Shown piece after piece: positions 1 to 15,750 of a DNA stretch of 64,000 bases. The DNA lies in assembly GCF_003946245.1 (NCBI RefSeq), contig NZ_RHNN01000008.1, positions 1 through 64,000 of the forward strand, written 5' to 3'. The notes under the pieces are model-generated. The model had not been told where the DNA came from and did not search any database. It worked only from the letters and a program-made list of their open reading frames with translations. Both the position numbers and the translations under genes were made by a program. Positions within the stretch are counted from its first letter, which is position 1. Every line of letters starts with the position of its first letter. The DNA comes from Levilactobacillus cerevisiae (lineage in GTDB: Bacteria; Bacillota; Bacilli; Lactobacillales; Lactobacillaceae).

Positions 1-19
1 CATTCTTTGATTATACAAA

Positions 20-186
20 AATATCCGTTGCCAGTAATCAAATTCATTTGATTACCAACAACAGATATTTTAGAACCATACTTTAACAGGTTTAGGGCGA
101 CTCATTTCTCGTCACTGTCTCCGCACACGAAGCGGAATGCAGGTCGGTGTCCAAACGCCGGCCTTTTTTGTACACCCACAATATAG
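20..186 (-). ncRNA. Antisense RNA of RatA type, copy 1 (putative antitoxin)
   Basis: On the minus strand an extended -10 (TGCTATATT, TATATT at 180-185) and a TGGCCG at -35 (203-208), 17 bp apart, match the promoter of the second copy at 448-565 base for base. The transcript would run left through a segment homologous to copy 2 (around 80-160) into a long hairpin (20-75) whose arms pair almost fully and end in T-rich sequence. The hairpin is unlike that of copy 2, so the 3' end has been rearranged. A partner toxin would lie left of the window and cannot be seen. The antitoxin role is inferred from copy 2. Confidence 0.5.
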
Positions 187-357
187 CATATTATCTGTTG
201 GACGGCCAAGTAAAACACTCGAAAAAATGAAATCGGTCGTAGGAAATGTACTGCAGATATTCAAACCATGCGGGGATGTTTGACGAAGCTATCTTTTCTC
301 CTTTCGAGGTGATGTCTATGGAGACATGGAAAAATCTGAAGAAAGGTTTCACAGCCT

Positions 358-441
358 ATGAGCGTGTTTCAGGCGCTGTCATTGATGCTGGCATTTGCCA
401 CATTAATGATATTAATCGATCGCCATAACGATCGAAAGTAA
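358..441 (+). CDS. Putative holin-like type I toxin, 27 aa
   Basis: A 27-codon gene begins at ATG 358 with the Shine-Dalgarno GAAAGG at 341-346. It encodes MSVFQALSLMLAF then a hydrophobic stretch and a charged tail ending DRHNDRK. This is the layout of the 'putative holin-like toxin' family (TxpA-like): MSVxxAL start, one membrane helix, short Asp/Arg/Lys-rich tail. The stop at 439-441 lies just before the terminator of a convergent minus-strand RNA (448-553), as in TxpA/RatA, where the antitoxin RNA covers the toxin mRNA 3' end. The role is inferred from family and layout. A different frame gives a 60-aa ORF across the same bases, but it lacks family features. No clear toxin promoter was found. 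Confidence 0.72.
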   Translation: MSVFQALSLMLAFATLMILIDRHNDRK

Positions 442-447
442 ATAAAA

Positions 448-553
448 AAGCCGCCCCTTAAGCGTTTGAGTTCAGGGCGACCCATCTGTCGTTACTTACT
501 CCGTTTGTGAAACAGCGTGTAGGGTCGGTGTTCACTCATCGGCCCTTTCGTCT
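448..553 (-). ncRNA. RatA-like antisense antitoxin RNA, copy 2
   Basis: The minus-strand promoter has TATATT at 560-565 with an upstream TG, and TGGCCG at 583-588 with 17-bp spacing. A transcript of about 105 nt would end in a hairpin (451-482, arms GCCGCCCCT and AGGGCGAC) followed by a U-run given by the A-tract at 445-450. The terminator starts nine bases after the toxin stop, so toxin mRNA reading on would pair with this RNA. Both the conserved promoter and the body resemble copy 1 (about 80-208). Confidence 0.62.
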
Positions 554-639
554 GTCTATAATATAGCACATCGGCCATAGAACGGCCACTTAATGGACTT
601 GGCAATAGATGAATGAGCAGCTCAGAGAGGCTTAAAGTC

Positions 640-700
640 TCCTAAGAGCAGTTCAGGCGACGCTCTGATTTATCACTCTGTTCCGATGACATTTTCGCAG
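640..700 (-). repeat. Degenerate third copy of the antitoxin-RNA body
   Basis: Bases around 655-692 (GTTCAGGCGACGCTCTGATT onward) line up with the body of the copy 2 antisense RNA (GTTCAGGGCGACCCATCTG onward), but no matching promoter is visible on the right. It looks like a decayed relic, which would make the left end of the window a small array of type I toxin-antitoxin loci. The rest of 442-750 holds only this relic and the neighbouring terminator. Confidence 0.35.
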
Positions 701-707
701 TCCAATT

Positions 708-741
708 AAAAAATCCACCAGCCAATTTCTAGCTAGTGGAT
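708..741 (-). terminator. Rho-independent terminator of the phosphatase gene
   Basis: Hairpin with arms ATCCAC(CAGCC) at 713-723 and (GGCTA-like) GTGGAT at 731-741. An A-tract at 708-713 gives the U-run on the minus strand. It follows the stop of the minus-strand gene at 751 by ten bases. Confidence 0.85.
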
Positions 742-750
742 GGGCAGCTG

Positions 751-1407
751 TTACTTAACCTTGCCTTCAGAGTTGTTATAATAATTAACCTTGTATTTGC
801 CATCCTTCACGGTCACCTTGGTGATGCTCCCGTTGTCAACTGGCACAGAAACGTCGATGTCCGAGTACTTGGACACGATGCTCCGGATGGTCGTGCTATG
901 GGTGGCGATTAAGAGGCGGTCGCCGTCATTCGCTGCGGTAATCGCGTTATCCAGGCCGGGTTGCACGCGATTCCAGAAGGTGGCGTTGTCCTCAGCGTCG
1001 CCAAATGGATCTTGGGCGTGGAACATATCCTTAGTCTTTTCAATCGTCAGTTCCTTGATCATGGCGTTGAAGGAATCCAAACCGATCGGCGTGCCCAGCG
1101 TGTACCAGACCAAGCCAGTGTCCAGGCCTTCAAAGTAGCCAAAGTTTTCTTCACGAAAGGCTGGTTCGGTGGTCAACGTGACCGGGGCATCGTTGGCAGC
1201 CAAGATACTCTTAGCCGTATTTTGTGCCCGGGTCGTATCACTGGCGTAAGCCGCCGCAAACTGAATTTTGGCTAACCGCTCGCCGGCACGTTTGGCATCG
1301 GCGATTCCCTTTGCAGTTAGCGGGGAGTCAGACCACCCTTGAATCCGATGGTATTTGTTTAAGTAAGTTTGGCCGTGACGCACCAAATAAAGTTCAACTG
1401 TCGCCAT
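751..1407 (-). CDS. Histidine phosphatase family protein (phosphoglycerate mutase-like)
   Basis: The 218-aa protein opens with LVRHGQT (residues 8-14), the RHG phosphohistidine motif of the histidine phosphatase superfamily. A later EENFGYFEG and an ATHSTTIRSI segment supply the acid/base Glu and the second catalytic His. The length fits small cytosolic phosphatases of the GpmB/CobC type rather than the ~230-250-aa glycolytic GpmA. The substrate cannot be read from the sequence. A start at 1407 is supported by GAGGAGAG-like bases upstream on the minus strand, and a terminator follows the gene, so it looks monocistronic. Confidence 0.9.
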   Translation of the reverse strand: MATVELYLVRHGQTYLNKYHRIQGWSDSPLTAKGIADAKRAGERLAKIQFAAAYASDTTRAQNTAKSILAANDAPVTLTTEPAFREENFGYFEGLDTGLVWYTLGTPIGLDSFNAMIKELTIEKTKDMFHAQDPFGDAEDNATFWNRVQPGLDNAITAANDGDRLLIATHSTTIRSIVSKYSDIDVSVPVDNGSITKVTVKDGKYKVNYYNNSEGKVK

Positions 1408-1477
1408 TTCAATCTCTCCTCTTCTTAAATAACTTTTGTCTCACATTTCAATAATATAGCTGTGGCGGTACAACGTG

Positions 1478-1500
1478 AGTCTGGGTTTTTAATCCAGACT
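1478..1500. other. Short inverted repeat upstream of the phosphatase gene
   Basis: AGTCTGG and CCAGACT flank a nine-base loop. It lies about 75 bp upstream of the phosphatase start and could be an operator or part of the S2 region. No function is assigned. Confidence 0.35.
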
Positions 1501-1626
1501 TGAAACCACCAGTGGCCAGTAAGGCAAATGCACTCCTGGCTTGAGGTGATAGACCACTTAACAGCTTACCAGTTTTAGCCAAAGGTTGAAAGCGGCACGC
1601 CGTCTAAAACTGACGGATTACCGTTC

Positions 1627-1768
1627 GCCAAATTTAGGTCAGAACGATGTGGGGTAGGACGGCCCAAGCCCTAGCACAGCCTTGAGCCTCGCTTTGAACC
1701 GCCCAACCCGGGGCTCAAAGTCGCTAGTAGACCACATGGAAAATCCCAAGGCTGAGTCTAAATTTGGC
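1627..1768 (+). repeat. S2-type structured intergenic element, copy 1
   Basis: The ends are a perfect 10-bp inverted repeat (CCAAATTTAG at 1628-1637, CTAAATTTGG at 1758-1767). Inside are nested pairs ATGTGG/CCACAT and TTGAGCC/GGCTCAA. The same plan, a long closing stem with nested stems built on TTGAG/CTCAA words, is seen at 8979-9138 and 9217-9439. The closing sequences differ but pairing is kept, which suggests selection on structure. No coding potential was recognised. Confidence 0.5.
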
Positions 1769-1860
1769 TCGCCCACGTCTATATGGACGGTTGTCAATGA
1801 CTTTGAATAAACGTTGAACGTTCAGCGACGTTTACGTCAATCTAATAGTGACAAACAATC

Positions 1861-2060
1861 ATAACCGGAGAAGGTCAGAGGTGGAGGCTGCTGTGACGAC
1901 GGTGTTAGCTGGGCACCAGCTTACAGCGTGGGACGCGTTTGGAGACTGACGGTCCTGGTCAGGCTTTAAACCCAGCCGGAGGACCGTTCCCCAGGCCGCA
2001 GGCGGTCCCCATAGCAGCCGGAATCTCTGGCAGCCGCAGGTGGGCACGAATAACCAATTT
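1861..2060 (+). ncRNA. S1-type structured RNA element, copy C (diverged)
   Basis: This is a distant relative of the S1 elements at 4416-4652 and 7137-7425. It shares the order GGTGTTAG...CTTACAGC, then a GGAGAC-like word, then the conserved word CCGCAGGCGG (around 1997-2006). Own helices include GGCTGCT/AGCAGCC (1886-1892 with 2013-2019), ACGGTCCT/AGGACCGT (1949-1956 with 1980-1987) and AGCTGG/CCAGCT. It lies between the phosphatase region and the convergent 3' end of the antiporter, so it is not a leader of any gene here. That argues the S1 family can stand alone. Confidence 0.5.
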
Positions 2061-2096
2061 AGTAGGCACAATCCTTGTTAGCTGAGCATTTAGGCC

Positions 2097-3953
2097 TTAG
2101 TTTAAAATGCCTAGTTCGCGCCGGATCTCATGCGCCGTTTCCGCGTTGCTGGTAAAGATGATGCGGTCATTCAGCTTCAGCGTGGTGCTACCAGTTGGCC
2201 GGACAAAGTGGCCATCCCGGAAGATTTGACTGATGGTGATGTCCTTAACAAACGGCAGACTGTGAATTTCCTGATCGGTATAGCGCCGGTTGCGGAGCGC
2301 GACTTCGTAGACGGCGGAGGTCGAGGCCGTCAGTAGGCGCAGTGTCGTTGGCGTTTCAATCAGGCTACGGAGCATGGCGATGTTGACGTTCGGTGTGTTG
2401 TAGACTTCAATGCCGAGGTCGGTCAGCTCGTCTTCCCGGGCGTCCAACACGTTGCGGTCCTCGAAGCGGGCAATGACCCGGGTGACGCCGTACGCCTTGG
2501 CGGCTTTGGCCAGTTCATAATTTTTTGTCGCGTTGAAGTGGCCAAGAACCACGATGTCTGCGTCGAAGGCGTCTTGCCCCTCTACGTAGTCACTCTCCAG
2601 AGAGTCGAGTAATTTCGCATTGACCTCTGAGTTGTACGTTTTGTAATTGTCCGGCTTGTCCGTGTACATCGTGATGTCGTACCAACTGTCGGCGAGTTGC
2701 TGAGCGACGGGAACGGTCAGGAGGTTGGTCCCGATAAAGTGGACGGTCGACTTTTTCAGGTCCTCGGCTTCAGCGGAATAGCCAGTGTTAAAGAGCAGCG
2801 GGCCGAGCACACAAGTGAGAATGGCGGCCAACAGGAAGGCACCGGACTGTTGCGAGGTGACGACCTTCATGGATTTTGCCACCTGCAGGACCGCCAAGAC
2901 CATGGTGATGGTTGTCGCAGAAATGGCGGTGCCAGCGAAGGCGTTGGCCCGTTTGAAACGCAAGCGCAGGATAAAGTAAACCGCGGCTTTGGCCAGCAGA
3001 TAGGCGGCAAAGAAGGCAGGAATCAGCAGCAACGTTGCCGGGTCGGCCAGGATGGTTCGGAGATTGAGTTCGGCACCGCTCATCATGAAGAAGATGGGGA
3101 TGAAAAAGCCGTAGCCAATCCCGTCGAGGCGGACCATGGTGTTTTCTTGCGGTTGCAGCAATTTCATCACGATACCGGCCACGAACGCACCCAGGATGCC
3201 CTCAGCACCCACAGATTCAGCGAGAACGACCAAGCTAAAAATCAGGAAGAAGGCCAGTCGAATGTCAAGTTGCGTCGTTGATTTATTAATACTGTCGAAG
3301 AAGGTGAAGAACGGCTGGAAGCGCCGGAACAACACGCCGGCAGCCAGAAAGACCAGCAGGAGTAGCCACAAAGATTTACTATTGTCACCGAAGACGGAGG
3401 CGTAAATCGTCAGGGAAAAGAGGGGGATGATTTCCCCCAGGGCGGCGATTAACAGGACCGTTTGCCCGAATGGCTTGCTGAGGAGTTCCTTTTCCTTTAG
3501 CGTGGCGATGACGATTCCCAGCGAAATGGTCATGAAGATGATGGCCGCTAACCACGGATCCTTGAACAGCCCGGTCCACTGGCAAATGAATCCCAGCAAG
3601 AGCGAACTCGCCATGATGGCCAGATAACTGGTGACGGCGAGAAAGACTGGCGAATACTTGGGCGCGCTGCCGGCCACCTTGGCAGCCAGGGGCGTCTGCG
3701 GTCGTTTTCGCCGGTTGAACAGGCTGAAATCAATTTCCATCCCACTTAAGAACAGGAGAAAAATAACGCCGGTACTCGACAGGAGTGACAGGGTTGAATT
3801 GCTGTGGACAACGTTTAGGACGCTGGGTCCCAACAGAATACCCACGAGAATTTCCACCACGGCGGTCGGTAGAACGGTCAACTTGAATTTAGCCATGACT
3901 AACGGCGTGACCAGAGCGGCAGTTAGAATAATTAACAAAGAAACTTGATCCAT
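2097..3953 (-). CDS. CPA2-family cation:proton antiporter with C-terminal RCK domains
   Basis: The 618-aa protein has about twelve hydrophobic segments over residues 1-390, with the Na/H-exchanger type SLLSSTGVIFLLFLSGME region. A Rossmann-like TrkA-N domain follows (about 400-515), then a TrkA-C domain (about 535-615, ending in SNAETAHEIRRELG). This is the KefB/YbaL architecture: potassium or sodium efflux against protons, gated by a cytosolic nucleotide-binding RCK pair. Substrate ion and ligand are not readable. The TrkA-N fold begins FIGTNLLTVPVAQQL, a weakened form of the GxGxxG nucleotide loop, so ligand binding may be altered. The gene stands alone, minus strand, about 140 bp from any neighbour. 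Confidence 0.9.
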   Translation of the reverse strand: MDQVSLLIILTAALVTPLVMAKFKLTVLPTAVVEILVGILLGPSVLNVVHSNSTLSLLSSTGVIFLLFLSGMEIDFSLFNRRKRPQTPLAAKVAGSAPKYSPVFLAVTSYLAIMASSLLLGFICQWTGLFKDPWLAAIIFMTISLGIVIATLKEKELLSKPFGQTVLLIAALGEIIPLFSLTIYASVFGDNSKSLWLLLLVFLAAGVLFRRFQPFFTFFDSINKSTTQLDIRLAFFLIFSLVVLAESVGAEGILGAFVAGIVMKLLQPQENTMVRLDGIGYGFFIPIFFMMSGAELNLRTILADPATLLLIPAFFAAYLLAKAAVYFILRLRFKRANAFAGTAISATTITMVLAVLQVAKSMKVVTSQQSGAFLLAAILTCVLGPLLFNTGYSAEAEDLKKSTVHFIGTNLLTVPVAQQLADSWYDITMYTDKPDNYKTYNSEVNAKLLDSLESDYVEGQDAFDADIVVLGHFNATKNYELAKAAKAYGVTRVIARFEDRNVLDAREDELTDLGIEVYNTPNVNIAMLRSLIETPTTLRLLTASTSAVYEVALRNRRYTDQEIHSLPFVKDITISQIFRDGHFVRPTGSTTLKLNDRIIFTSNAETAHEIRRELGILN

Positions 3954-4415
3954 CGTTTCATCCCCTCAAAAAAGTTCCCCTTTATTATAGCAAAGTTAGC
4001 CACGACTAACTGGTTTAACGACGGGCGGTTTACTTTATTTATAGGCTGAATACGTGTAGAATGGTAAGTCAAATTATGCTTGGTTGCGGACCAGGAAACT
4101 GGCCCCAGCACCACTGAAATTGGATGGTAGGGCTGAAACATCAATGCACAAGTGCCGCATGTGTCCACGGACTGTCACGGTCGAGTAATTGGGGACGCAA
4201 TTCAAGCGTAGTCGACTGATAAAATCGGCTGACGGTAGTGCAGTGGGCAGATACTTGTCGCGACAGGAAATTGTGGGGGAGAATGACATATCCTCCAGGG
4301 AAGAATCATGACGAACGTAAAGTCATGTAAGCATTAAAGCATGTGCGAAAATGATGTGAACTAGTCCGATATGGACTTATACACAGAAAGAAAAAAATGA
4401 CACGAACAGCGATGC
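3954..4415. other. Intergenic stretch upstream of the antiporter and S1 copy A
   Basis: This stretch separates the divergent antiporter and helicase genes and must hold both promoters. A 71-codon open frame on the minus strand (4074-4289) was considered; its Shine-Dalgarno sits only two bases from the start, and it resembles nothing known to me. No repeat or RNA gene was recognised before the S1 element begins at 4416. Confidence 0.4.
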
Positions 4416-4652
4416 CCCCAATCACAATGTGAGTGGAGCCGGAGGCAGCTAGGTATGGAATCCCCTGTGTCGGTGTTGTTAGACCGGTGAAATTTCCGGC
4501 CTTACAACACGGGTCGTGTGGAAAGACTTGTGGGTTTTACAAGGCTTGCCACCGCTGTCGAAGACCGCCTTATGGCTTCGGCAGGTTGCCCCACAGGGGT
4601 GGAATACCTAGAGGCCGCAGGCGGAACGCACTCACCACACCAGTGATTGGGG
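4416..4652 (+). ncRNA. S1-type structured RNA element, copy A
   Basis: Nested helices close the element. P0 is CCCCAATCAC/GTGATTGGGG (4416-4425 with 4643-4652). P1 is GTGAGTG/CACTCAC (4429-4435 with 4629-4635). P3 is CTAGGTAT/ATACCTAG (4449-4456 with 4604-4611). P4 is CCCCTGTG/CACAGGGG (4462-4469 with 4592-4599). P5 is GTGTTGT/ACAACAC (4473-4479 with 4504-4510). Two more hairpins lie inside (CTTGT/ACAAG, CTGTCGAAG/CTTCGGCAG). Nearly all change in copy B with pairing kept. It ends about 25 nt before the helicase Shine-Dalgarno, so it could be a 5' leader or a free RNA. Confidence 0.7.
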
Positions 4653-4689
4653 AAAATCGTGTAAACCAGGAAAATGAGGAGGGATTGGC

Positions 4690-6984
4690 TTGCCAGATTC
4701 AATCAAGGCCCACGAGCAAGAACATTTAGACGCGGTGGTCACAAAGATCAAGACCGCCGAAAAAGAAGCGAAGGAACGGATCGATGTTGCCGAAAATGAC
4801 GAGGCCGGTATCCGGAAGAACTTTGTCAACGATCTGCGCATCAAGACGGATAGTTACGAAGGTATTTTGGAAACTGCACTGTCCGTACGTCAGCAGCAAC
4901 AGATGTTAGCCGAACGACAGAATAGTTGGCAACATGCGACCACGGAACTGAGTACGTTGCAACGGTTGGAGCAAAAGGCTTACTTCGCCCGGATCGACTT
5001 TCAAGAGGGCCCCAAGGCCAAGGTGGAGAGCATCTACATCGGTCTCGGTTCCTTCTCTGACACGCCTGACCACTTCTTGATTTACGACTGGCGCGCGCCC
5101 ATCTCCAGCATTTACTACGATGGCGAGCTCGGCAATGTGAGTTACCAGACGCCGGATGGCGAACAGACGGTGGACGTCAAGTTAAAACGCCAATTTCAAA
5201 TTGAAGACGGCACCATCATCACCCTGTACGATACGGATCAGACGGTGACCGACCAGATGCTCTTGTCGGCGCTGAGCGAACACTCCGACACCAAGATGAA
5301 GAGCATCGTCACCACGATTCAAAAGGAACAAAACCAGATTATCCGGGACACCGGCTCTGATTTACTGTTCGTGCAAGGGGCAGCGGGGTCCGGTAAAACG
5401 GCCGCAATCCTGCAGCGAGTGGCGTTTCTGCTGTACCGGTACCGGGGCCATTTGAACGCCGGCCAGGTCATGCTCTTCTCGCCTAATCAATTATTTAACG
5501 ATTACATTGACCAGGTGCTCCCAGAATTGGGTGAGCACAACATGGTCCAAATGACGTACTACCAGTACGCTGGTCGCCGCTTGCCGAAGATTGACGTGGA
5601 AACGTTGGCGCAACGCTTTGACGAGACCAACACGCCAGCACAAAAGAAGATTAACCAGTTGAAGGGGAGTTTAGCGTTCTTTGACGCGGTCACCGGTTAC
5701 GCCGACCACCTGGAAGCCAGCGACATGGTCTTCCGCAACATCAAGTTTAATGGCGACATCTTCATTACCAAGGAAAAAATTCAAGAAATCTACTATAGTT
5801 TTAACCGTAATTATCACCTGGGTAACCGACTGCAGGCCACCAAGGAAGCCTTGATTCGGATCCTGAATCGCCGGATTTCCAGCGAAATGAAGACCAAGTG
5901 GGTGGAAGATACCATCCAGGATCTCAGCAAGCAGCAGCTGGACACCCTCTATGGGGATGATCCGCGGGAGTTTGACTCGTCCGAAAAGGAAATGCAATTT
6001 CTGTCACGTAAGGTGGTTATGCAGGCGTTTGAACCGATTCGCAAGGCGATTGTGCGGGCACGTTTCCTGAGCATCAACAATCAGTACGTCCACATGCTGC
6101 GAGACATGCCAAATCGGATTGACCTGAGCGCTTACCACGTGACGGTGGCCGACTGGAATGCCAGCGTCGAGGAGTCCGTCGCGAAGTTGCGGGACCACCG
6201 GATGCAGCTGGTCGATACCACGCCGTACCTGTACCTGTACGACAAGATGACGGGTAAATCCGGCGAGCGGGACATGCGCTACGTTTTCATGGATGAAATT
6301 CAGGACTACAACGCCTTTCAACTGGCGTTCCTGAAGTTCAGTTTCCCGCGGGCGCGCTTCACCATGCTGGGGGACCTCAACCAAGCCATTTTCACCAAGG
6401 AAAATAGCCGCACGTTGTTGCAGGAGCTGAGCACCATGTTCGATCCTGAAAAGACACGGGTGGTCCAACTGACCCAGTCTTACCGATCGACGCAACAGGT
6501 CACCGACTTCACCAAGCATATTTTGAAAAATGGGGAAGCCGTGACGGCGTTTGCGCGTGAGGGTGAACTGCCAACCATGACGGTGGCGGCGGATGAAGAT
6601 GCGGCGTTGCAGAAGGTCATCGCCCAAATCAAGCAAAATGAAGAAGAGGACGAAACGACGGCCATCATTGGCAAGGACCTGGCGGATTGTCGGGATCTCA
6701 CGGAGAAGCTGAAGGCGGCCGGCGTTGCGGTGACGCTGATTCAATCCGAAAACCAACGGCTGGCACCGGGCACCATCGTCGTGCCATCGTTCCTGGCCAA
6801 GGGTTTGGAATTCGACGGCGTGGTAGTCTGGCAGGCATCGGCCAGTCGCTACAGTGCGGATGACGAACGACAACTGTTGTACACCATCTGTTCCCGGGCG
6901 ATGCACCGCTTGAGTATTGTGGCGGTGGAAGAGCTGTCACCCCTGTTGAGCGATGTGCCAACTGATGAATATGAAATGGTTTAA
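4690..6984 (+). CDS. HelD-like superfamily 1 DNA/RNA helicase (RNA polymerase recycling type)
   Basis: The 764-aa protein starts at TTG 4690 after AGGAGGGA. Its N-terminus is charged and coiled-coil-like (residues 1-60, KIKTAEKEAKERIDVAENDE). A UvrD/Rep-type motor follows, with Walker A GAAGSGKT near residue 231, Walker B FMDEIQDYNAFQ near 535, a QSYRST motif near 595 and late helicase motifs (KGLEFDGVVVW). A long N-terminal arm before a split SF1 motor is typical of HelD, which removes RNA polymerase from DNA and recycles it. UvrD and PcrA lack this arm. The HelD assignment is by architecture. S1 copy A lies just upstream, and a terminator follows. Confidence 0.85.
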   Translation: MPDSIKAHEQEHLDAVVTKIKTAEKEAKERIDVAENDEAGIRKNFVNDLRIKTDSYEGILETALSVRQQQQMLAERQNSWQHATTELSTLQRLEQKAYFARIDFQEGPKAKVESIYIGLGSFSDTPDHFLIYDWRAPISSIYYDGELGNVSYQTPDGEQTVDVKLKRQFQIEDGTIITLYDTDQTVTDQMLLSALSEHSDTKMKSIVTTIQKEQNQIIRDTGSDLLFVQGAAGSGKTAAILQRVAFLLYRYRGHLNAGQVMLFSPNQLFNDYIDQVLPELGEHNMVQMTYYQYAGRRLPKIDVETLAQRFDETNTPAQKKINQLKGSLAFFDAVTGYADHLEASDMVFRNIKFNGDIFITKEKIQEIYYSFNRNYHLGNRLQATKEALIRILNRRISSEMKTKWVEDTIQDLSKQQLDTLYGDDPREFDSSEKEMQFLSRKVVMQAFEPIRKAIVRARFLSINNQYVHMLRDMPNRIDLSAYHVTVADWNASVEESVAKLRDHRMQLVDTTPYLYLYDKMTGKSGERDMRYVFMDEIQDYNAFQLAFLKFSFPRARFTMLGDLNQAIFTKENSRTLLQELSTMFDPEKTRVVQLTQSYRSTQQVTDFTKHILKNGEAVTAFAREGELPTMTVAADEDAALQKVIAQIKQNEEEDETTAIIGKDLADCRDLTEKLKAAGVAVTLIQSENQRLAPGTIVVPSFLAKGLEFDGVVVWQASASRYSADDERQLLYTICSRAMHRLSIVAVEELSPLLSDVPTDEYEMV

Positions 6985-6999
6985 AGCCTAAGTAAATAA

Positions 7000-7039
7000 G
7001 CGGCCCTCGTCAGATTTCTGTGCTGATGGGGGCCGTTTT
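7000..7039 (+). terminator. Terminator after the HelD-like gene
   Basis: CGGCCCTCGTCAG (7001-7013) pairs with CTGATGGGGGCCG (7023-7035) and is followed by TTTT. It lies 16 bases after the helicase stop. Confidence 0.88.
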
Positions 7040-7114
7040 CATATCGGCAGAAAAAAGGTGTGAACGCGCTGCCAAACTTTGTGAAATCATGCCCGGTAGC
7101 GGGGGTATCTGCGG

Positions 7115-7120
7115 TATAAT
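7115..7120 (+). promoter_or_regulatory. Perfect -10 box ahead of S1 copy B and coaA
   Basis: TATAAT at 7115-7120 has no good -35 hexamer 17 bp upstream, so its strength is unclear. It lies about 17 bp before the closing helix of S1 copy B, which would place the element at the 5' end of the transcript. Confidence 0.4.
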
Positions 7121-7136
7121 AAGACTTAATTGTTTT

Positions 7137-7425
7137 ACGTGTTGTGCGTGTGAAGTGGCTGGTAGTCCGTTCTAAATTTTTTGGACACCAGCGGACAGAT
7201 GCGCACGTTTGCTTGGCGTTGGAGCCGGAGACAGCTAGTTACAGAAACCTGTGTCGATGGTGTTAGACCGGTGAACTTCCGGCCTTACAGCATGGGTCGT
7301 GTGGGGAGACTTGCGGTGTTTGCAAGGCTCACCACCGCCTCTGGAGACCGCTTTTGGGCTCCAGAGGGTTGCCCCACAGGTTGGGAGTAACTAGCTACCG
7401 CAGGCGGAAACCCCAAGCAACACGT
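7137..7425 (+). ncRNA. S1-type structured RNA element, copy B
   Basis: Same fold as copy A with different bases. P0 is ACGTGTTG/CAACACGT (7137-7144 with 7418-7425). P1 is GCTTGG/CCAAGC (7211-7216 with 7413-7418). P3 is GCTAGTTAC/GTAACTAGC (7234-7242 with 7387-7395). P4 is AACCTGTG/CACAGGTT (7246-7253 with 7375-7382). There is also a CTTGC/GCAAG hairpin and a nine-pair CCTCTGGAG/CTCCAGAGG hairpin. The P0 3' strand is followed by GATTTTTTT, so it may also act as a terminator. It sits between a TATAAT at 7115 and coaA. Single-strand words such as TTAGACCGGTGAA and CCGCAGGCGGAA are shared with copy A. Confidence 0.72.
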
Positions 7426-7453
7426 GATTTTTTTGCAAAGTAGAGGTGTCTTC

Positions 7454-8377
7454 ATGAGTGATCCCATCAATTACAATGCGTTTACCCGCGCCCAGTGGCG
7501 GGCCTTTTCCGATGACGCAACGCTACCGTTGACGCAAGAAAGTTTGCGGCAAATTAAGGCGTTTAACGACCGGATTTCCCTGCAAGATGTTCAGGACGTG
7601 TACATTCCGTTGGTGCATTTATTACACTTACAATTTGACCACTACCGCCAATTACAAAAAGATAAGGCGGCTTTTCTCCAGCAACAACCCCACCGGGTGC
7701 CATTTATCATTGGTATTGCCGGGAGTGTGGCGGTCGGTAAAAGTACGGCGGCGCGCCTGCTAGAGGTGTTGCTGAATCACTATTTTGCCGGTCAACGGAT
7801 TCAGCTGATTACGACCGATGGCTTTCTGTATAGTAACGAGGAGCTCAAGAAACGCAATTTGATGGCGCGCAAGGGGTTCCCGGAGAGCTACGACATGGCG
7901 TCGTTGATTCAATTTTTAAATGACGTGAAGGCGGGTAAGGAGCTAATTAAGGCGCCGGTGTACTCGCATAAAGTTTATGATATTGTGCCGGACCAGTTCG
8001 AGTACATCGTGCACCCGGACGTTTTGATTGTGGAGGGAATTAATACACTGCAATTACCGACCAATGAACAAATTTATGTCAGCGATTTTACCGACTTCTC
8101 CCTGTACGTCGATGCTGAACCGTCGCTGATTGAAAGCTGGTTTTTGGAACGGTTCGAGTTGTTGCTGGAAACGGCTTTTCAGGATCCCAGCAACTACTAT
8201 TACCCTTACACGACGGTCAGTCACGAAGAGGCCATTGCCAAGGGCAAGCAGGTTTGGCGCGACATTGATTTGAAAAATTTAACGGAATACATTTTACCCA
8301 CCCGAAACCGGGCCGATATGATTTTGCACAAGACGTTCCATCACCGGATTGATCGCCTGTTGCTGCGGAAATACTAG
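7454..8377 (+). CDS. coaA: Type I pantothenate kinase
   Basis: The 307-aa protein matches bacterial type I pantothenate kinase, which phosphorylates pantothenate with ATP as the first step of coenzyme A synthesis. Evidence includes the P-loop GSVAVGKST near residues 95-103, ITTDGFLYSN, the NLMARKGFPESYD segment, VEGINTLQ, and the C-terminal ILHKTFHHRIDRLLLRKY. Its ~307-316-aa length is typical. ATG 7454 follows AGAGGTG; an in-frame codon 30 bases earlier lacks this site. The GNAT gene begins 11 bases after the stop, suggesting an operon. S1 copy B lies in its 5' region. Confidence 0.96.
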   Translation: MSDPINYNAFTRAQWRAFSDDATLPLTQESLRQIKAFNDRISLQDVQDVYIPLVHLLHLQFDHYRQLQKDKAAFLQQQPHRVPFIIGIAGSVAVGKSTAARLLEVLLNHYFAGQRIQLITTDGFLYSNEELKKRNLMARKGFPESYDMASLIQFLNDVKAGKELIKAPVYSHKVYDIVPDQFEYIVHPDVLIVEGINTLQLPTNEQIYVSDFTDFSLYVDAEPSLIESWFLERFELLLETAFQDPSNYYYPYTTVSHEEAIAKGKQVWRDIDLKNLTEYILPTRNRADMILHKTFHHRIDRLLLRKY

Positions 8378-8388
8378 GGGGCGTTGCG

Positions 8389-8967
8389 ATGTTACGAGAC
8401 GCAACCATTGTGGATGCGGACGCCGTGGCCATGCTGGTGCTCCACGAACTCGAACGCCGCCAGCTCCGACGATTGCGCCGGGTGACGAAAGAACAGCTGT
8501 CGCAAATGTTATTTGTAGGCTATCACCAGCCAGATTTTCGCTACGGGTATCCGCAAGCACGGGTGTACCAAAACCAGGGCGTGGCGGTCGGCGTGGTTTA
8601 CGGCTATCCGGCGGCAGTGGAGGCCACACTGGATAATCAGTGGGCGGAGCTGTTCAGCCGCCAGCAGTTAACGGTGCCACAGCAACTGGTGGTGATCCCG
8701 CGGGCGTTGCCGGACGAGTGGTACTTGGACTTATTAACGGTCCGCAATCGCTCAAAGGGCAAGACCTACCAGCAGAAATGGTTTGACGAGTGGCTGCTGG
8801 GCGACGCGATTCACCGTGCCCGAGAGAGTGGTCAACCCGTAATGGGGATGGACGTCCGGCCGGGAAGTTCGCTGGCCACGCTGGCGGCGGAGTTCGGCTT
8901 CGTCGCCACGCAACGCCGGTTGTTGGACCGGCAAGTTTATTACCATTTGCGGTTGAAATTGAGGTAA
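8389..8967 (+). CDS. GNAT family N-acetyltransferase
   Basis: The 192-aa protein has the GNAT outline: an N-terminal IRDATxxDADAV-like strand and helix (here LRDATIVDADAVAML), a core strand pair (VAVGVVYGYP), a WYLDLLTVRNRSKGKTY segment matching the acetyl-CoA pyrophosphate-binding region (usually V..., R/Q-x-x-G-x-G/A; here RSKGKTY), and a late EFGFVATQRRLLDRQVYYH strand. The acceptor is unknown. It starts 11 bases after coaA and reads with it. Confidence 0.8.
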   Translation: MLRDATIVDADAVAMLVLHELERRQLRRLRRVTKEQLSQMLFVGYHQPDFRYGYPQARVYQNQGVAVGVVYGYPAAVEATLDNQWAELFSRQQLTVPQQLVVIPRALPDEWYLDLLTVRNRSKGKTYQQKWFDEWLLGDAIHRARESGQPVMGMDVRPGSSLATLAAEFGFVATQRRLLDRQVYYHLRLKLR

Positions 8968-8978
8968 ATTTCGCCTCC

Positions 8979-9138
8979 GGGCTGGTGAAAATTGGGCCGG
9001 AACGCGGCGGGGAGGACGCCTCGAGCCAAAGGGCGGTCTCGAGACTTGCTTTGAGCCACCAAGAACGCGTCTCAAAGACACCATGACCTGAGTGAAACTC
9101 TCAGGTCATCCCACGGCTGAACCCATTTTCACCAGCCC
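8979..9138 (+). repeat. S2-type structured element, copy 2
   Basis: The closing stem is GGGCTGGTGAAAAT at 8979-8992 with ATTTTCACCAGCCC at 9125-9138, extended by GGG/CCC across a one-base bulge. Inside are three clean hairpins: CTCGAG/CTCGAG, CTTTGAG/CTCAAAG and TGACCTGAG/CTCAGGTCA. It begins a few bases after the acetyltransferase stop, so the element may lie at the 3' end of the coaA transcript. Noncoding. Confidence 0.55.
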
Positions 9139-9530
9139 TGCGGCTAACACTGGTTTGAACCGCAGATAGTAAGTTGGTAGTTCAGCTGGCGGTTGAAATG
9201 GTGTCTCGATGAGTGAAAACTGGGCCTGGTCGCGTCCGTTCCCGGCGGCGCGCTCAAGGCGCCCTGCTGTGGGGCCGGTTCCAGTCTGAGAAGCGGGCTT
9301 CCACCTCAACTTTGAGCCTGAAAAGCGGTCTCAAGGGTTGTCCCATGGGCTAAGCTGAGAAAAATCACTCAGCTAAGGCCATCGACACAGCTGGAATCCT
9401 TGCCCCGCCTCTGGTCACTCCCGCGACTGGGCCCAGTTTCCCCCGCACTGCGGCTGACACTGGTTTGAATCGTCAGTTGTAAGTTGTCAAGTCTACTGGC
9501 TGTTAGTTTTGGCGCCGGACGTTTGACCAC
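9139..9530 (+). repeat. S2-type structured element, copy 3, with duplicated tails
   Basis: AAACTGGGCC then TGGTCGCG (9217-9234) pairs with CGCGACTG then GGCCCAGTTT (9422-9439): 18 pairs, two of them G-U wobbles valid only for a plus-strand RNA. Inside is CTAAGCTGA/TCAGCTAAG and a GGCGC-rich hairpin. An ~80-bp tail (CTGCGGCTAACACTGGTTTG onward, 9137-9217) recurs after this copy (about 9444-9530) as CTGCGGCTGACACTGGTTTG onward. S2 plus tail has thus been duplicated in tandem with a period near 305 bp. The remaining bases to guaA hold only its promoter. Confidence 0.55.
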
Positions 9531-11261: not shown

Positions 11262-12497
11262 TTATACCGGCGTTTCTTGACTCTTTTCTTCTGTATTTCC
11301 CGTTGCTGGCACCGAAATGGCACCAGTAATGTGTTTCTTGCCCGTAAACTGATTACGAGTGGGGACAACGACTGAATGATCCGCCGGAGTGAAATCAACT
11401 AGACCATTAAGGTGTTGTGCTGTCTCAAAGTTACTATTTGGATATAGATGTCCATAAGTTCCTAAAGTTGTTTGAATGTCTTCATGTCCCAAACGTTCCT
11501 TAATAATTAATGGGTTTTCCCCAATACTAATTAACAAGGAAGCATGAGAATGTCGAAGCGCGTGGACACGAATTCGATGAACATTCGCGGCCTTAGAATA
11601 GACGTTGATTACTTGAGACAGTGATCCGCGAGTAGTTGGCACACCATTGTATGAAAGCACAAAATCTGTTTTAACTTCAGACGCTTGAATCTCTTTCCAC
11701 TCGGAGAGATATTCAAGTGTCTTTTTGTCTAACGGAACTGTCCGAGCACTGGCGCGAGTTTTGGGTGAAGTAAATTCATAGTTAAACGCATTTAAATAAT
11801 AAAGTGTTTTGTTGATCCGGATCGTACCGGCTTTAAAATCAACGTCTTCCCACTGAAGAGCGGTTGCTTCACCGATGCGGGCACCGGTCATAAATAGAAG
11901 CCAAATTGTGGTGAAATTGAAACGCTGATAGTAGTCATTAAGATCCATTAAGGAAATAACTTTCTCAAACTCGGCTTTAGTCCAGAAATCGACTTTCTTC
12001 TTTTCCTTCTTTAAATTGCCAACAATTTTTGTTGGATTCTCTTCACAGAATCCTAGTACAATTGCACGATCAAAAACCAAAGATAACAAGCATTGAACTA
12101 GGCGGGTGTATGAATTACTTACTTGACTCTTCATCATGATTTGCCATTTCTGTATGTCCACCGGCGTAATTTTGTTAATGAAATACTTGTTAAATCCTTT
12201 GAATTGCTTTCGAAAGACGCTAACGCGACTGTCAAAAGTAGCCTTTTTGACATGACCTTCATACCAAGGAATAAAGAATTGCTGGCAGAAGTCACCAAAG
12301 GTAATCTGATCTGTTGAACCTTCTTTAACCCCATTCGCCATTAAATCACGATAAGCAGTCTTTGCTTCACGCATTGTTTTAAATCCGCTACGGCGTTTTT
12401 GGACACGTTTACCAGTTCGTTCATCCACACCAATGTTGGCACGGAAATAATAGGTGCCGTCTTTTGCTTTTTTTATTACTTCGGTTGTCTTTGTCAT
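11262..12497 (-). CDS. int: ICE tyrosine recombinase (integrase)
   Basis: The 411-aa protein has an N-terminal arm-type DNA-binding domain (KDGTYYFRANIGVDERTGKR), a core-binding domain (about 70-165) and a catalytic domain. Catalytic residues visible are Arg in GARIGEA (~212), HALRH (~312) and the tyrosine in LGTYGHLYP (~347). This is the Tn916/phage-type integrase that cuts att sites. It overlaps the upstream small gene by one base (TAATG), so both are co-transcribed. It converges on guaA. Confidence 0.95.
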   Translation of the reverse strand: MTKTTEVIKKAKDGTYYFRANIGVDERTGKRVQKRRSGFKTMREAKTAYRDLMANGVKEGSTDQITFGDFCQQFFIPWYEGHVKKATFDSRVSVFRKQFKGFNKYFINKITPVDIQKWQIMMKSQVSNSYTRLVQCLLSLVFDRAIVLGFCEENPTKIVGNLKKEKKKVDFWTKAEFEKVISLMDLNDYYQRFNFTTIWLLFMTGARIGEATALQWEDVDFKAGTIRINKTLYYLNAFNYEFTSPKTRASARTVPLDKKTLEYLSEWKEIQASEVKTDFVLSYNGVPTTRGSLSQVINVYSKAANVHRIRVHALRHSHASLLISIGENPLIIKERLGHEDIQTTLGTYGHLYPNSNFETAQHLNGLVDFTPADHSVVVPTRNQFTGKKHITGAISVPATGNTEEKSQETPV

Positions 12498-12745
12498 TAT
12501 GATTGCTCCTCTGACGCAGATGCACCGATTTTAGCTAACTCTGAAAGAGTTCGCGCATTGAGCGTAAGACCTAATACTTCTTCAACCGCAGTTACTGGAA
12601 CGCGGCCTAGCTTTGGTGACTCGTAATATGGACAGCCTTTCTGGACCATTAACAGCTTTGCACGTCTGATAATGTCTTTAGAAGCCCAAGGTCCATATCC
12701 TAAAGCCACAAGTTCATGTTTAGTCATAGTGACAACGTGAACCAT
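12497..12745 (-). CDS. DUF3173-type small DNA-binding protein, probable excisionase or directionality factor
   Basis: The 82-aa protein starts at ATG 12745 after GAAAGGAGG with good spacing; an upstream in-frame start would add 45 residues with no ribosome site. The sequence (MTKHELVALGYGPWASKDII...AKLLMVQKGCPYYESPKLGRVPVTAVEEVLG) reads as a winged or MerR-like DNA-binding fold: recognition helix, then a wing, then a VPVTAVEEVLG helix. DUF3173 genes commonly sit directly before ICE integrases in lactobacilli. The excisionase role is inference from size and position. Confidence 0.75.
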   Translation of the reverse strand: MVHVVTMTKHELVALGYGPWASKDIIRRAKLLMVQKGCPYYESPKLGRVPVTAVEEVLGLTLNARTLSELAKIGASASEEQS

Positions 12746-12762
12746 AATTAGCCTCCTTTCGC

Positions 12763-12792
12763 TGGAAGCTAGACCGTATATCTTAGCTTCCA
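12763..12792. other. Leader hairpin upstream of the integrase operon
   Basis: GGAAGCTA and TAGCTTCC flank a short loop just upstream of the Shine-Dalgarno of the DUF3173-type gene. It could be an operator or attenuator of excision genes. The rest of 12746-13120 shows no gene. Confidence 0.4.
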
Positions 12793-13117
12793 TATTAACA
12801 GGATTGGGGAATAAGTGCAGCTCAATTGTGTCGGAAAACTTGCTACCCAGTTCCGTCACTAACGGACATAGGAATTTCACCTCTCCTGCTTACGTGGGAG
12901 CCTCGCGGAAGTATCATTATTGACTTAACTTGTACGATCATCAGTTAAAAATCGTAATCAAAGTGTGGGAGGCGCTCGCACTTCTGGTCATGGCGTCCGC
13001 AGATCAACAGTTCAAGTAAAGTCAGAAAGTCAGGGTAGCAATATTCAGTTTTCAAAGGACTCACAGGTGTTATTGCCTGCTCACTATATACATACAGATA
13101 AAAATAGAAAATGAAAC

Positions 13118-13156
13118 CCAAAAAGCAAACTAATCGAAAAAAGATTAGCTGAAATA
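13118..13156 (-). repeat. Duplicated terminator-like segment, left of the ars/cad cargo
   Basis: AAAAAGCAAACTAATCG, six A's, then GATTAGC forms, on the minus strand, a hairpin (CTAATC/GATTAG) followed by a T-rich run. A near-identical segment is the terminator of the orf8-like gene at 21023-21056. The two copies bracket the whole ars/cad block. Confidence 0.55.
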
Positions 13157-13161
13157 ATGCT

Positions 13162-13215
13162 TGACGTTTACATAGATATAGGTCTATATTGTAGATATAG
13201 ATACGTGTCTATATT
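13162..13215 (+). promoter_or_regulatory. ars promoter with two ArsR-type operators
   Basis: TTGACG (13162-13167) and TATATT (13186-13191) are 18 bp apart. Two imperfect palindromes of the form ATAGATA-N4-TCTATAT lie at 13173-13190, over the spacer and -10, and at 13198-13215, with centres 25 bp apart. They fit binding sites for the ArsR encoded next. Confidence 0.8.
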
Positions 13216-13233
13216 TGTGAGGGGAGAACGTCA

Positions 13234-13593
13234 ATGGATTATCAAAATTATGTGCTAATGCTAAAAGCAATGGCTGACCCTAATCGTCTCAAAATCATTG
13301 ATTTACTTTCCTGCGGTTCGCTTTGTGCCTGTGATATTTTAGAACATTTTGATTTTTCACAACCAACGTTATCGCACCACATGAAAGTTTTACAAAATGC
13401 TGGGATCGTCACGGCACGTAAAGAGGGTAAGTGGCAGCATTATACATTGCAGGCTGAATTTACGGCTAAATTTAGGCAAGGGACTGAACTACTTTTAGCC
13501 AGCAATGAAGAATGCGTTTGTCATGGTGACGATTGCATAGATCAGCAGACAAGTCATTCCAGAAAGGTTGTTATCACTAATGAAAAAAGTTGA
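13234..13593 (+). CDS. arsR: ArsR-family arsenite-responsive repressor
   Basis: A 119-aa winged-helix protein of the ArsR/SmtB family. It carries the metalloid-sensing cysteines in LSCGSLCACDIL (the ELCVCDL motif of classical ArsR) in the alpha-3 helix, and the recognition region FSQPTLSHHMKVLQNAG. It would release the operators at 13173-13215 when As(III) binds. A Cys-rich tail (EECVCHGDDC) may be an added metal site. It starts after GAGGGGAG and overlaps arsD by 14 bases, so it leads the operon. Confidence 0.95.
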   Translation: MDYQNYVLMLKAMADPNRLKIIDLLSCGSLCACDILEHFDFSQPTLSHHMKVLQNAGIVTARKEGKWQHYTLQAEFTAKFRQGTELLLASNEECVCHGDDCIDQQTSHSRKVVITNEKS

Positions 13594-13939
13594 ATTATTT
13601 GAACCAGCGATGTGCTGTTCTACCGGGGTTTGTGGGCCAGCGGTTAATGAAGATCTATTAATGATCACTTCAGCGTTTGACGCGTTACAAGGTGTTTCCA
13701 GCGTTGAAGCCGACCGGTATAATCTTAGCAATAATCCAGATGTCTTTAGTCAGCGGGCCGATATTCTAGCTGCAATCAAGGATGATGCCGATGCAACATT
13801 GCCGATCACTGTTGTCGACGGCAAAATTGTTAAAACCGGCGCTTACCCAACAATTGATGAGTTATCGGAATATACTGGTTTAGTTTTCGTGCCGGCTGAT
13901 CAATCAAGCGGCTGTTGTGGTGGAAGTGGCTGCTGCTAA
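13580..13939 (+). CDS. arsD: Arsenic metallochaperone ArsD
   Basis: 119 aa, starting at ATG 13580 inside the arsR end. The conserved pair MCCSTGVCGP gives Cys12-Cys13-Cys18, the As(III) site of ArsD, which hands arsenite to ArsA. The C-terminus has two further vicinal pairs (SSGCCGGSGCC), as in the enterobacterial protein. The thioredoxin-like core ends at LPITVVDGKIVKTGAYPT. It lies directly before arsA. Confidence 0.95.
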   Translation: MKKVELFEPAMCCSTGVCGPAVNEDLLMITSAFDALQGVSSVEADRYNLSNNPDVFSQRADILAAIKDDADATLPITVVDGKIVKTGAYPTIDELSEYTGLVFVPADQSSGCCGGSGCC

Positions 13940-13988
13940 TTTTTTGGTTGAAGCAAGAAATGGCACAGCCGTTTCTTTTAAATTATAT

Positions 13989-14004
13989 ATAGATGATTAT
14001 CTAT
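13989..14004 (+). promoter_or_regulatory. Third ArsR-type operator, in front of arsA
   Basis: ATAGAT-GATT-ATCTAT is a perfect 6-4-6 palindrome with the same half-site as the two operators ahead of arsR. It sits 16 bases before the arsA start. It could give separate control of arsA and the downstream genes, or act as a roadblock. Confidence 0.6.
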
Positions 14005-14019
14005 GTTAGGAGAATATAT

Positions 14020-15750
14020 ATGCGCGAATATCAACCACAAAATGCTAATTTAACTCATTATTTATTTTTCACTGGTAAAGGGGGCGTCGGTAAGACCACA
14101 ACGGCTAGTGCCACCGCCATCAATCTAGCTGATAGCGGTCAGCAAGTGATGCTGGTCTCCACTGATCCAGCTAGTAATTTACAGGATGTATTTGATACTG
14201 ATTTGACCAATAAACCCAAGGCAATCACCGGTGTGCCCGGTCTATTTGCCGCTAACTTTGATCCGGTGACTGCTGCCGGTGAATATCGGGAAAGCGTCGT
14301 TGGTCCTTACCGCGGCGTGTTACCGGATGCAGCAGTCAAAAATATGGAGGAACAGTTGTCTGGTTCATGTACGGTCGAGATCGCATCGTTTAATGAATTC
14401 GCTAAATTTTTAACTGATCCCGCTGTCGATCAGCGCTTTGATTATATTATTTTTGATACAGCGCCGACTGGTCATGCGTTGCGTATGCTGCAATTGCCCT
14501 CAGCTTGGAATAATTACTTGGCGGAAAATGATCGTGGGGCTTCATGCTTAGGCCAACTAGCCGGGATGGGCGACAAAAAAGCAATTTACGCCAAGGCTGT
14601 GGCTACTTTAAATAATGGCGAATTGACCACCTTAATGTTAGTCACGCGTCCCCAAAAAGCATCATTACTGGAAGCGGCGCGGGCAGCCCAAGAATTAGCT
14701 GATATTGGCATGCAAAATCAACAATTAATTATTAATGGAACGTTGAAAACACCGACTGATCGTGCTTCCCATGCTATTTTTGAGCAGCAGCAGACTGATT
14801 TGCAACAGATGCCAGCAACATTACAGGCGTTGCCCCAAGCAGAAGTACCGTTACGAGCGTACAATGTTACTGGCCTAGATAAGTTGAGATTAGTTTTACA
14901 ACCGGAACAACCAAGTTTAGCAACTTATCCGGCAATTACCAATCACTATCCTAATTTAGATACCATTGTTGCTGATTTAATTAAGACTAACAAAAAAATT
15001 ATTTTCACCATGGGTAAAGGCGGCGTAGGTAAAACTACGGTGGCCGTGCAGATCACTAAAAAGCTGGTGGCCCAGCATAAAACCGTTCATTTAGCCACCA
15101 CTGATCCGGCTGATCATCTTGATTTCTTTAACACAGATGATCCTGCAATCACCATCAGTCATATTGATGAACAGCAGGTACTTAAGGACTATCAAAATGA
15201 AGTGCTGACGACGGCGCGTCAAACCATGAAATCGGCCGATGTTGACTATGTGGCTGAGGATCTACGCTCACCATGTACGCAAGAAATTGCCGTTTTCCGC
15301 GCTTTTGCTAACATTGTCGCCCAAAATGATAGTGATGTTGTAGTCATCGATACGGCGCCAACCGGCCATACGCTACTGCTACTGGATTCGACTCAAAGCT
15401 ATGCCAAAGAAGTCAAACGCACTGCCGGTGATGTGCCTCAAGCAATCGTTGATCTGTTACCGCGGCTACAAGATCCAGCGCAGACTGAAATTGTAATGGT
15501 GACTTTACCGGAAACAACGCCAGTTTATGAGTCGATGCGCTTGAATGATGATCTAGATCGGGCCCAAATTGCGCACACCTGGTGGTTGGTCAATCAAAGT
15601 ATGCTGGCAACGGAAACAACGCATCCTTGTTTGCAGGCCCGGGCGCAAAATGAAGTTGAATGGATCGAAAAGGTTAAGCAGATTTCCAATGGTCATTTTG
15701 CAGTTGAACAATGGCAACCAGATTTTGAGCAGGCGTTATTAACGATTTAG
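14020..15750 (+). CDS. arsA: Arsenite-transporting ATPase ArsA
   Basis: 576 aa, two tandem ATPase halves. Each has a P-loop GKGGVGKTT (residues 19-27 and near 338) and a DTAPTGHxL signature. Cysteines in SGSCTVEIA and SPCTQEIAVF match the metalloid-binding cysteines that join the halves. ArsA energises ArsB for arsenite efflux. ATG 14020 follows TAGGAG; nine upstream in-frame codons overlap the operator and lack a ribosome site. The arsB gene follows after a hairpin. Confidence 0.95.
   Translation: MREYQPQNANLTHYLFFTGKGGVGKTTTASATAINLADSGQQVMLVSTDPASNLQDVFDTDLTNKPKAITGVPGLFAANFDPVTAAGEYRESVVGPYRGVLPDAAVKNMEEQLSGSCTVEIASFNEFAKFLTDPAVDQRFDYIIFDTAPTGHALRMLQLPSAWNNYLAENDRGASCLGQLAGMGDKKAIYAKAVATLNNGELTTLMLVTRPQKASLLEAARAAQELADIGMQNQQLIINGTLKTPTDRASHAIFEQQQTDLQQMPATLQALPQAEVPLRAYNVTGLDKLRLVLQPEQPSLATYPAITNHYPNLDTIVADLIKTNKKIIFTMGKGGVGKTTVAVQITKKLVAQHKTVHLATTDPADHLDFFNTDDPAITISHIDEQQVLKDYQNEVLTTARQTMKSADVDYVAEDLRSPCTQEIAVFRAFANIVAQNDSDVVVIDTAPTGHTLLLLDSTQSYAKEVKRTAGDVPQAIVDLLPRLQDPAQTEIVMVTLPETTPVYESMRLNDDLDRAQIAHTWWLVNQSMLATETTHPCLQARAQNEVEWIEKVKQISNGHFAVEQWQPDFEQALLTI

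Follow-up and report, generated by a model that had tools for sequence, protein, structure and literature searches.

Taken together, our analyses favor, with a probability of roughly 0.6, a reading in which the S1 elements are structured repeats of the Lactobacillaceae that are borne by MITEs, mobilised by an IS4-family transposase and kept folding as RNA, the copies in the window (the whole stretch of L. cerevisiae DNA that was analysed, 64 kb in length) being old or solo derivatives. The young form, as represented in L. koreensis, in the genome G003 and by one unit in L. tujiorum rather than in the window's species, would be a MITE of 365-626 bp that often carries two outward-facing modules of ~190 nt and sometimes one. 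After insertion, the ends would decay and the modules would go on folding on the outward-reading strand. Because any doublet, when transcribed across, would yield one correctly folded module, our inference is that selection acts on this strand as RNA.

The words and stems quoted in a preliminary description of this DNA are present at the positions given there, while its count of three copies in the same orientation was too low. A covariance model, R1, built from 22 copies of the L. cerevisiae genome, recovers five copies on both strands of the 64 kb (E 5.9e-42 to 3.3e-12) together with one fragment (Table 1); it returns no further match up to E 10 and no copy at 9.5-64 kb. By eye, the right flank of S1c resembles the right flank of the MITE copies in G003, and the TIR of S1c is unrecognisable. 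Copies in the window, as judged from their sequence, lack the MITE ends and are counted as decayed or solo derivatives; those beside coaA and helD would descend from such MITEs.

Table 1 Features of the window that bear on the S1 elements
Feature	Position	Strand	Evidence
S1b core, class A module, five helices	7222..7408	+	R1 171.1 bits
S1b including variable outer stem ACGTGTTG/CAACACGT and additional hairpin	7137..7425	+	sequence reading, fold
S1a core, class A module, 5' of helD-like gene	4436..4625	+	R1 185.2 bits
S1a including outer stem CCCCAATCAC/GTGATTGGGG	4416..4652	+	sequence reading, fold
S1c, additional copy	1862..2044	+	R1 147.1 bits
Possible fragment, divergent partner module, left of S1c	1660..1723	-	R1 19.0 bits, E 0.0042
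Additional S1 copy	9241..9411	-	R1 96.1 bits
Additional S1 copy, diverged	8970..9146	-	R1 57.9 bits
helD (RNA polymerase recycling motor)	4690..6984	+	NF041464 E 1.2e-232
coaA (type I pantothenate kinase)	7454..8377	+	TIGR00554 E 9.4e-130
TATAAT, presumed coaA promoter, 5' of S1b; recurs before coaA in relatives	7115..7120	+	sequence

The conserved multi-helix fold with compensatory changes that had been proposed is supported by a 22-copy alignment and by shuffle tests. S1a (4410-4660), S1b (7135-7428) and S1c (1855-2066) fold with z scores of -6.6, -6.0 and -3.75, respectively, relative to dinucleotide shuffles, and in each case 0/200 shuffles folded equally well. The alignment (22 own-genome copies, MAFFT) was made without structural information and the structure was derived from it afterwards, whereas the other alignments, including those of the samples from the own genome (G000) and from G003, were fitted to the model. 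In the structure-free alignment, 95.5% of 1278 cells pair, both-sided changes occur in 37 of 59 pairs against a mean of 21.4 (sd 2.2) in shuffles, the covariation score reaches 0.393 against 0.156 (sd 0.009) in shuffles, and none of five measures was reached by any of 500 shuffles; sliding the partners by 1-3 columns lowers pairing to 33-45%. The module measures ~190 nt and has a five-helix fold, in which, by eye, an outer GCC/GGC stem with a mostly GGA/GCA internal loop is followed inward by an AGGTA/TACCT stem, a CTGTG/CACAG stem and then three hairpins. A variable outer stem (P0), likewise seen by eye, encloses the module in both S1a and S1b and in several further copies.

That the family is repeated is borne out, and the genomes of some lactobacilli carry hundreds of copies each. 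In the own genome, all 150 scored candidates match R1, a lower bound given that a first look yielded 991 candidates; 400 kb of stretches from this genome hold 98 raw hits, which give no unbiased density since these stretches were picked after hits were visible. A systematic sample of G003 (20 x 20 kb, one every 150 kb, 400 kb in all) holds 66 raw hits, which suggests ~500 copies in total, and its 64 non-overlapping hits occupy ~3% of the sample; no replication-strand bias of these copies was obvious by eye. Within Levilactobacillus, the window's species has L. wangkuiensis and L. lanxiensis as close relatives, and R1 matches 23 of 24 congeners (own genome included), several of them weakly: G016 has four matches with a best E of 9e-9, and the best E values of G004, G005, G006, G013, G014 and G022 lie between 2e-17 and 5e-15. 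None of 16 genomes from other families matched. Surveys with stricter filters, in which at most 8 and at most 60 candidates per genome were scored, gave matches in 70 of 301 Lactobacillaceae genomes, spread over 11 of 40 genera, and in 24 of 43 named genomes. Presence is thus patchy: Secundilactobacillus similis and S. odoratitofui and three species of Lactiplantibacillus (pingfangensis, 60/60; fabifermentans, 60/60; herbarum, 54/60) have 54-60 matches among 60 scored candidates, while L. plantarum EGD-AQ4 (0/60), Levilactobacillus suantsaii, Secundilactobacillus malefermentans, six Lentilactobacillus, one Apilactobacillus and two Enterococcus genomes have none. A distant blastn search with S1a gave no match in plasmids or phages.

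Gene context bears on the proposal, made in the preliminary description, that S1 is a repeated family of noncoding RNAs, here taken as either cis-regulatory or stand-alone. We examined 157 non-overlapping hits from the G000 and G003 samples with a simple ORF caller. Called ORFs flank 146 of these on both sides, 11 lie at the edges of stretches and none lies within an ORF, a zero to be read with the caller's discarding of short ORFs that overlap a hit. Measured from the 3' end of the module, the next gene lies at a median distance of 73-126 bp; measured from the 5' end, the median is 382-650 bp. Both flanking genes are on the module strand in 51 cases and on the opposite strand in 49, with 16 divergent and 30 convergent pairs; because background gaps >250 bp are divergent in 36 and convergent in 34 cases, the modules under-use divergent gaps. 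The next gene downstream is on the module strand in 67 cases and on the opposite strand in 79. Modules therefore face outward from the middle of intergenic regions without clear preference for the sense of the neighboring gene. Divergent partners no more than 350 bp away accompany 30/98 copies in G000, 40/64 in G003, 26/53 in G040 and 20/34 in G041, counts from which weak partners can escape. The constant position and orientation that would mark a riboswitch or other cis-regulatory leader were not found, going by the strands of neighboring genes (51 vs 49; 67 vs 79) and by orthologous sites at which the module is absent or deleted.

The window itself offers an apparent leader, because S1b follows the presumed coaA promoter and precedes the coaA start codon; a consensus scan of 6960-7470, beside S1b, found no promoter-like site. 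Comparison of 31 coaA loci shows a module in this leader position in the window as well as in L. wangkuiensis and L. lanxiensis. The coaA intergenic regions of L. tongjiangensis, L. yonginensis and L. hammesii also contain modules, but upstream of the promoter, and those of L. namurensis, L. acidifarinae, L. zymae, L. senmaizukei and L. paucivorans are 138-164 bp long and gave no R1 match. Across these loci, the pattern is one of insertions and not of a conserved leader. The helD copy of L. lanxiensis carries an internal deletion, so individual copies are dispensable. Strong covariation and the position of S1b speak for an RNA family in the sense of the preliminary description; the balanced orientations, the at least 150 copies in the own genome, the orthologous sites at which relatives have no module or an internally deleted one, and the contrast between L. 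plantarum EGD-AQ4 and the other Lactiplantibacillus speak against it. We consider such a family very unlikely, and a leader RNA was judged unlikely on gene context, orientation and patchy presence. Two observations at these loci stand on their own: L. suantsaiihabitans has at the S1b site a short hairpin that by eye is like S1b minus its inner part, and L. fujinensis has an apparent CRISPR array with repeats GTATTCCCCGTGGACACGGGGGTGATCC between helD and coaA.

The outward-facing modules, frequently paired as doublets, together with an empty site, with target duplications and, in young copies of other species, with ends shared with an IS4-family element, indicate instead an interspersed mobile repeat. 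In L. koreensis, 15-bp inverted ends of the form ACTAAAGGTTG(A/C)AAG were found 90 times with at most one mismatch (49 + 41, against 2 + 0 for a reversed control). Among 20 stretches of this species (genome G337), chosen for their TIR pairs, 19 contain a TIR-bounded unit (L231 lacks a pair), and 18 of the 19 units are flanked by exact direct repeats of 5-7 bp (L224 is not). Eighteen of the units are MITEs of 365-626 bp without a transposase gene, and 16 of these match R1, ten as outward doublets and six as single modules; L232 and L233 gave no R1 match. Three further units with 6-bp direct repeats, bounded by inverted ends ACTAAAGGTTG(C/A)AA(G/C), come from G003 (L188 and L189) and L. tujiorum (L080). 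Among the 10 candidates inspected for these, L075 was left uncounted as the same unit as L228 of the L. koreensis set, and the second end was unrecognisable in 6. An empty site adds to this evidence: a 342-bp insertion with a TTTCT duplication in L. wangkuiensis is missing from L. lanxiensis. Its ends differ from the MITE TIR, which suggests that several sets of ends may be involved. The units are non-coding, shorter than ~700 bp, multicopy and intergenic, and all the TIRs and target duplications just described lie outside the window. A promoter scan of one L. koreensis MITE (L217) gave three sites, two of them outside the MITE, against a mean of 0.4 in shuffles.

Beyond L. koreensis the ends are rare. 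The exact TIR was found, among 24 genomes, only in G003 and in one genome from another family. TIR-like ends with up to three mismatches accompany 11 of 64 copies in G003 (reversed control 2), 4 of 98 in the own genome (control 1) and none of the 87 copies from L. wangkuiensis and L. lanxiensis (control 0). As the own-genome ends are near control, the IS4 link of the window's species rests on homology of the modules.

The candidate partner is a 1561-bp insertion sequence of L. koreensis (L214:1001-2561) that has the same ends as the MITEs and a TGATTA duplication and encodes a 450-aa transposase of the IS4 family (NCBIfam NF049925, E 5.6e-141). Such an autonomous partner with shared ends was found in L. 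koreensis only, and a transposase of this kind probably moves the MITE in trans. Relatives of the transposase occur in 17 of 40 genomes, many as fragments or distant matches, and among the 24 congeners only L. koreensis (G019) has an intact, close full-length copy. G009 has a copy at 85% with a stop and G010 a full-length relative at 50%; the own genome has a full-length relative at 50% identity and, at 79%, a truncated one beside which one similar end is present; G003, despite carrying the ends, has only a fragment at 54% and distant matches, with no close full-length copy. Relatives were also found on 161 plasmid records, at no more than 69.5% identity among the matches listed, while one L. 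koreensis MITE used as query had no match in plasmids.

A possible though doubtful alternative keeps the same MITE family and takes it as purely selfish palindromic DNA, its covariation arising from template switching between hairpin arms as the DNA is replicated and from exchange between copies, without any selection on RNA folding. Template switching can make and maintain stems, as the cited sections of PMC8794818 describe, and variants do replace one another: of 38 same-site comparisons between close species, 26 count as conserved (paired identity >=0.85) and 12 have similar flanks around a replaced module variant. For example, L070:6601-6785 and L071:6627-6796 share an intergenic site with flanks that are 93-97% identical and differ in the folded variant, and in one case, judged by eye, an older class B module holds between its arms a class A module complete with a stem of its own. 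Partial exchange may also affect some of the 26 conserved comparisons. An internal deletion at a microhomology (junction 4 of the analysis that gave the empty site) also fits selfish DNA.

The conserved copies nevertheless argue against selfish DNA as the whole explanation. In the 26 comparisons, 74 of 122 changed pairs are still canonical and 48 are broken, whereas a neutral simulation gave a canonical fraction of 0.295 (sd 0.035, maximum 0.43 of 500), with the reservation that comparisons within three species in this set are not independent. Template switching and exchange would by our reasoning yield about as many G-U as A-C pairs; in 23 orthologous comparisons (three of the 26 being dropped as overlapping), single changes from Watson-Crick pairs gave 38 G-U against 14 A-C (p 0.0012) and mismatches of other kinds 22 times; there were also 5 double breaks. 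Pairs with both bases changed seldom adjoin one another, since 24 of 26 runs have a length of one. All-copy counts, split by list rank into strong copies and the rest and excluding the last, mostly overlapping antisense rows, lean the same way (G-U/A-C 86/22, 95/47, 61/7 and 122/26). The outward-reading strand also has the better fold, in 89 of 102 copies under RNA parameters and in 95 of 102 under DNA parameters; the corresponding figure for control windows is 61 of 120 (RNA parameters). Single-strand folding thus seems to be constrained after insertion. The G-U excess and the strand preference argue against strand-symmetric cruciforms and template switching alone and are compatible with RNA and single-stranded DNA alike; since the constraint acts on resident copies, RNA would be the selected molecule. 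A stronger form of the MITE-borne RNA reading, in which hundreds of mobile-repeat copies are under selection as folded RNA and make up a genome-wide, transposon-derived layer, swapped at fixed intergenic sites in the manner of exapted SINEs, is an unlikely speculation.

The preliminary description did not recognise the element, and Rfam agrees: no family lies over the modules at gathering score in the whole window or, relaxed to E 5, in window positions 1-9000, the two copies past ~8970 being covered whole by the gathering search only. The L. koreensis MITEs L217 and L225 gave no Rfam match up to E 1. S1 thus shares a structured RNA-like fold with Rfam families and matches none of them over its modules. 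This repeat seems to be treated in none of the open-licence papers that were listed, the longer listings being sampled in part, which is weak evidence of its absence from print.

The known bacterial MITEs, reviewed in PMC10969869, include RUP, NEMIS, Bcr1, ERIC and EFAR (PMC3733652, section cited). Like these, S1 is short, multicopy and intergenic, has TIRs and target duplications in young copies and a candidate partner IS, and would be expected to give stem-loop transcripts. It differs in its outward-facing, five-helix modules of 190 nt, their strong covariation, their hundreds of copies and their exchange at fixed sites, and also in composition, with a module GC of about 0.5-0.7 where MITEs are typically AT-rich according to the sections cited from PMC10969869.

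REP and BIME elements with their RAYT transposases (PMC3733652; PMC2817692) likewise have many palindromic intergenic copies and inverted doublets, and the doublets and preferred strand of S1 are BIME-like. Their units, however, are GTAG-tagged palindromes of 20-40 bp (PMC3733652, sections cited), and S1, with ~190 nt and five helices, does not fall under that definition; unit size, fold, TIRs and the transposase class of the candidate partner all set it apart. That S1 consists of hairpins of single-stranded DNA for which a tyrosine transposase of the IS200/IS605 type provides mobility is very unlikely given its inverted ends, its 5-7-bp target duplications and its IS4-family candidate.

Double-hairpin elements of organellar DNA are GC-rich and nested. 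S1 resembles these elements in being a mobile hairpin repeat, and differs in being bacterial and larger and in having a candidate transposase.

The S1 family would make up a few percent of the genome in some lactobacilli and provide a bacterial system for watching compensatory evolution across hundreds of copies, in which counts of G-U versus A-C pairs can separate template switching from selection on a folded strand. Elsewhere in the window, Rfam scores positions 285-428 at 36.9 bits for rli28, below the gathering threshold of 45. Positions 11262-15750, where guaA is followed by an integrase-like ORF and then by ArsR/ArsA-like ORFs as read from the ORF list, look like an integrated island, within which Rfam places a pemK RNA (RF02913) at 12866-12920 on the minus strand.
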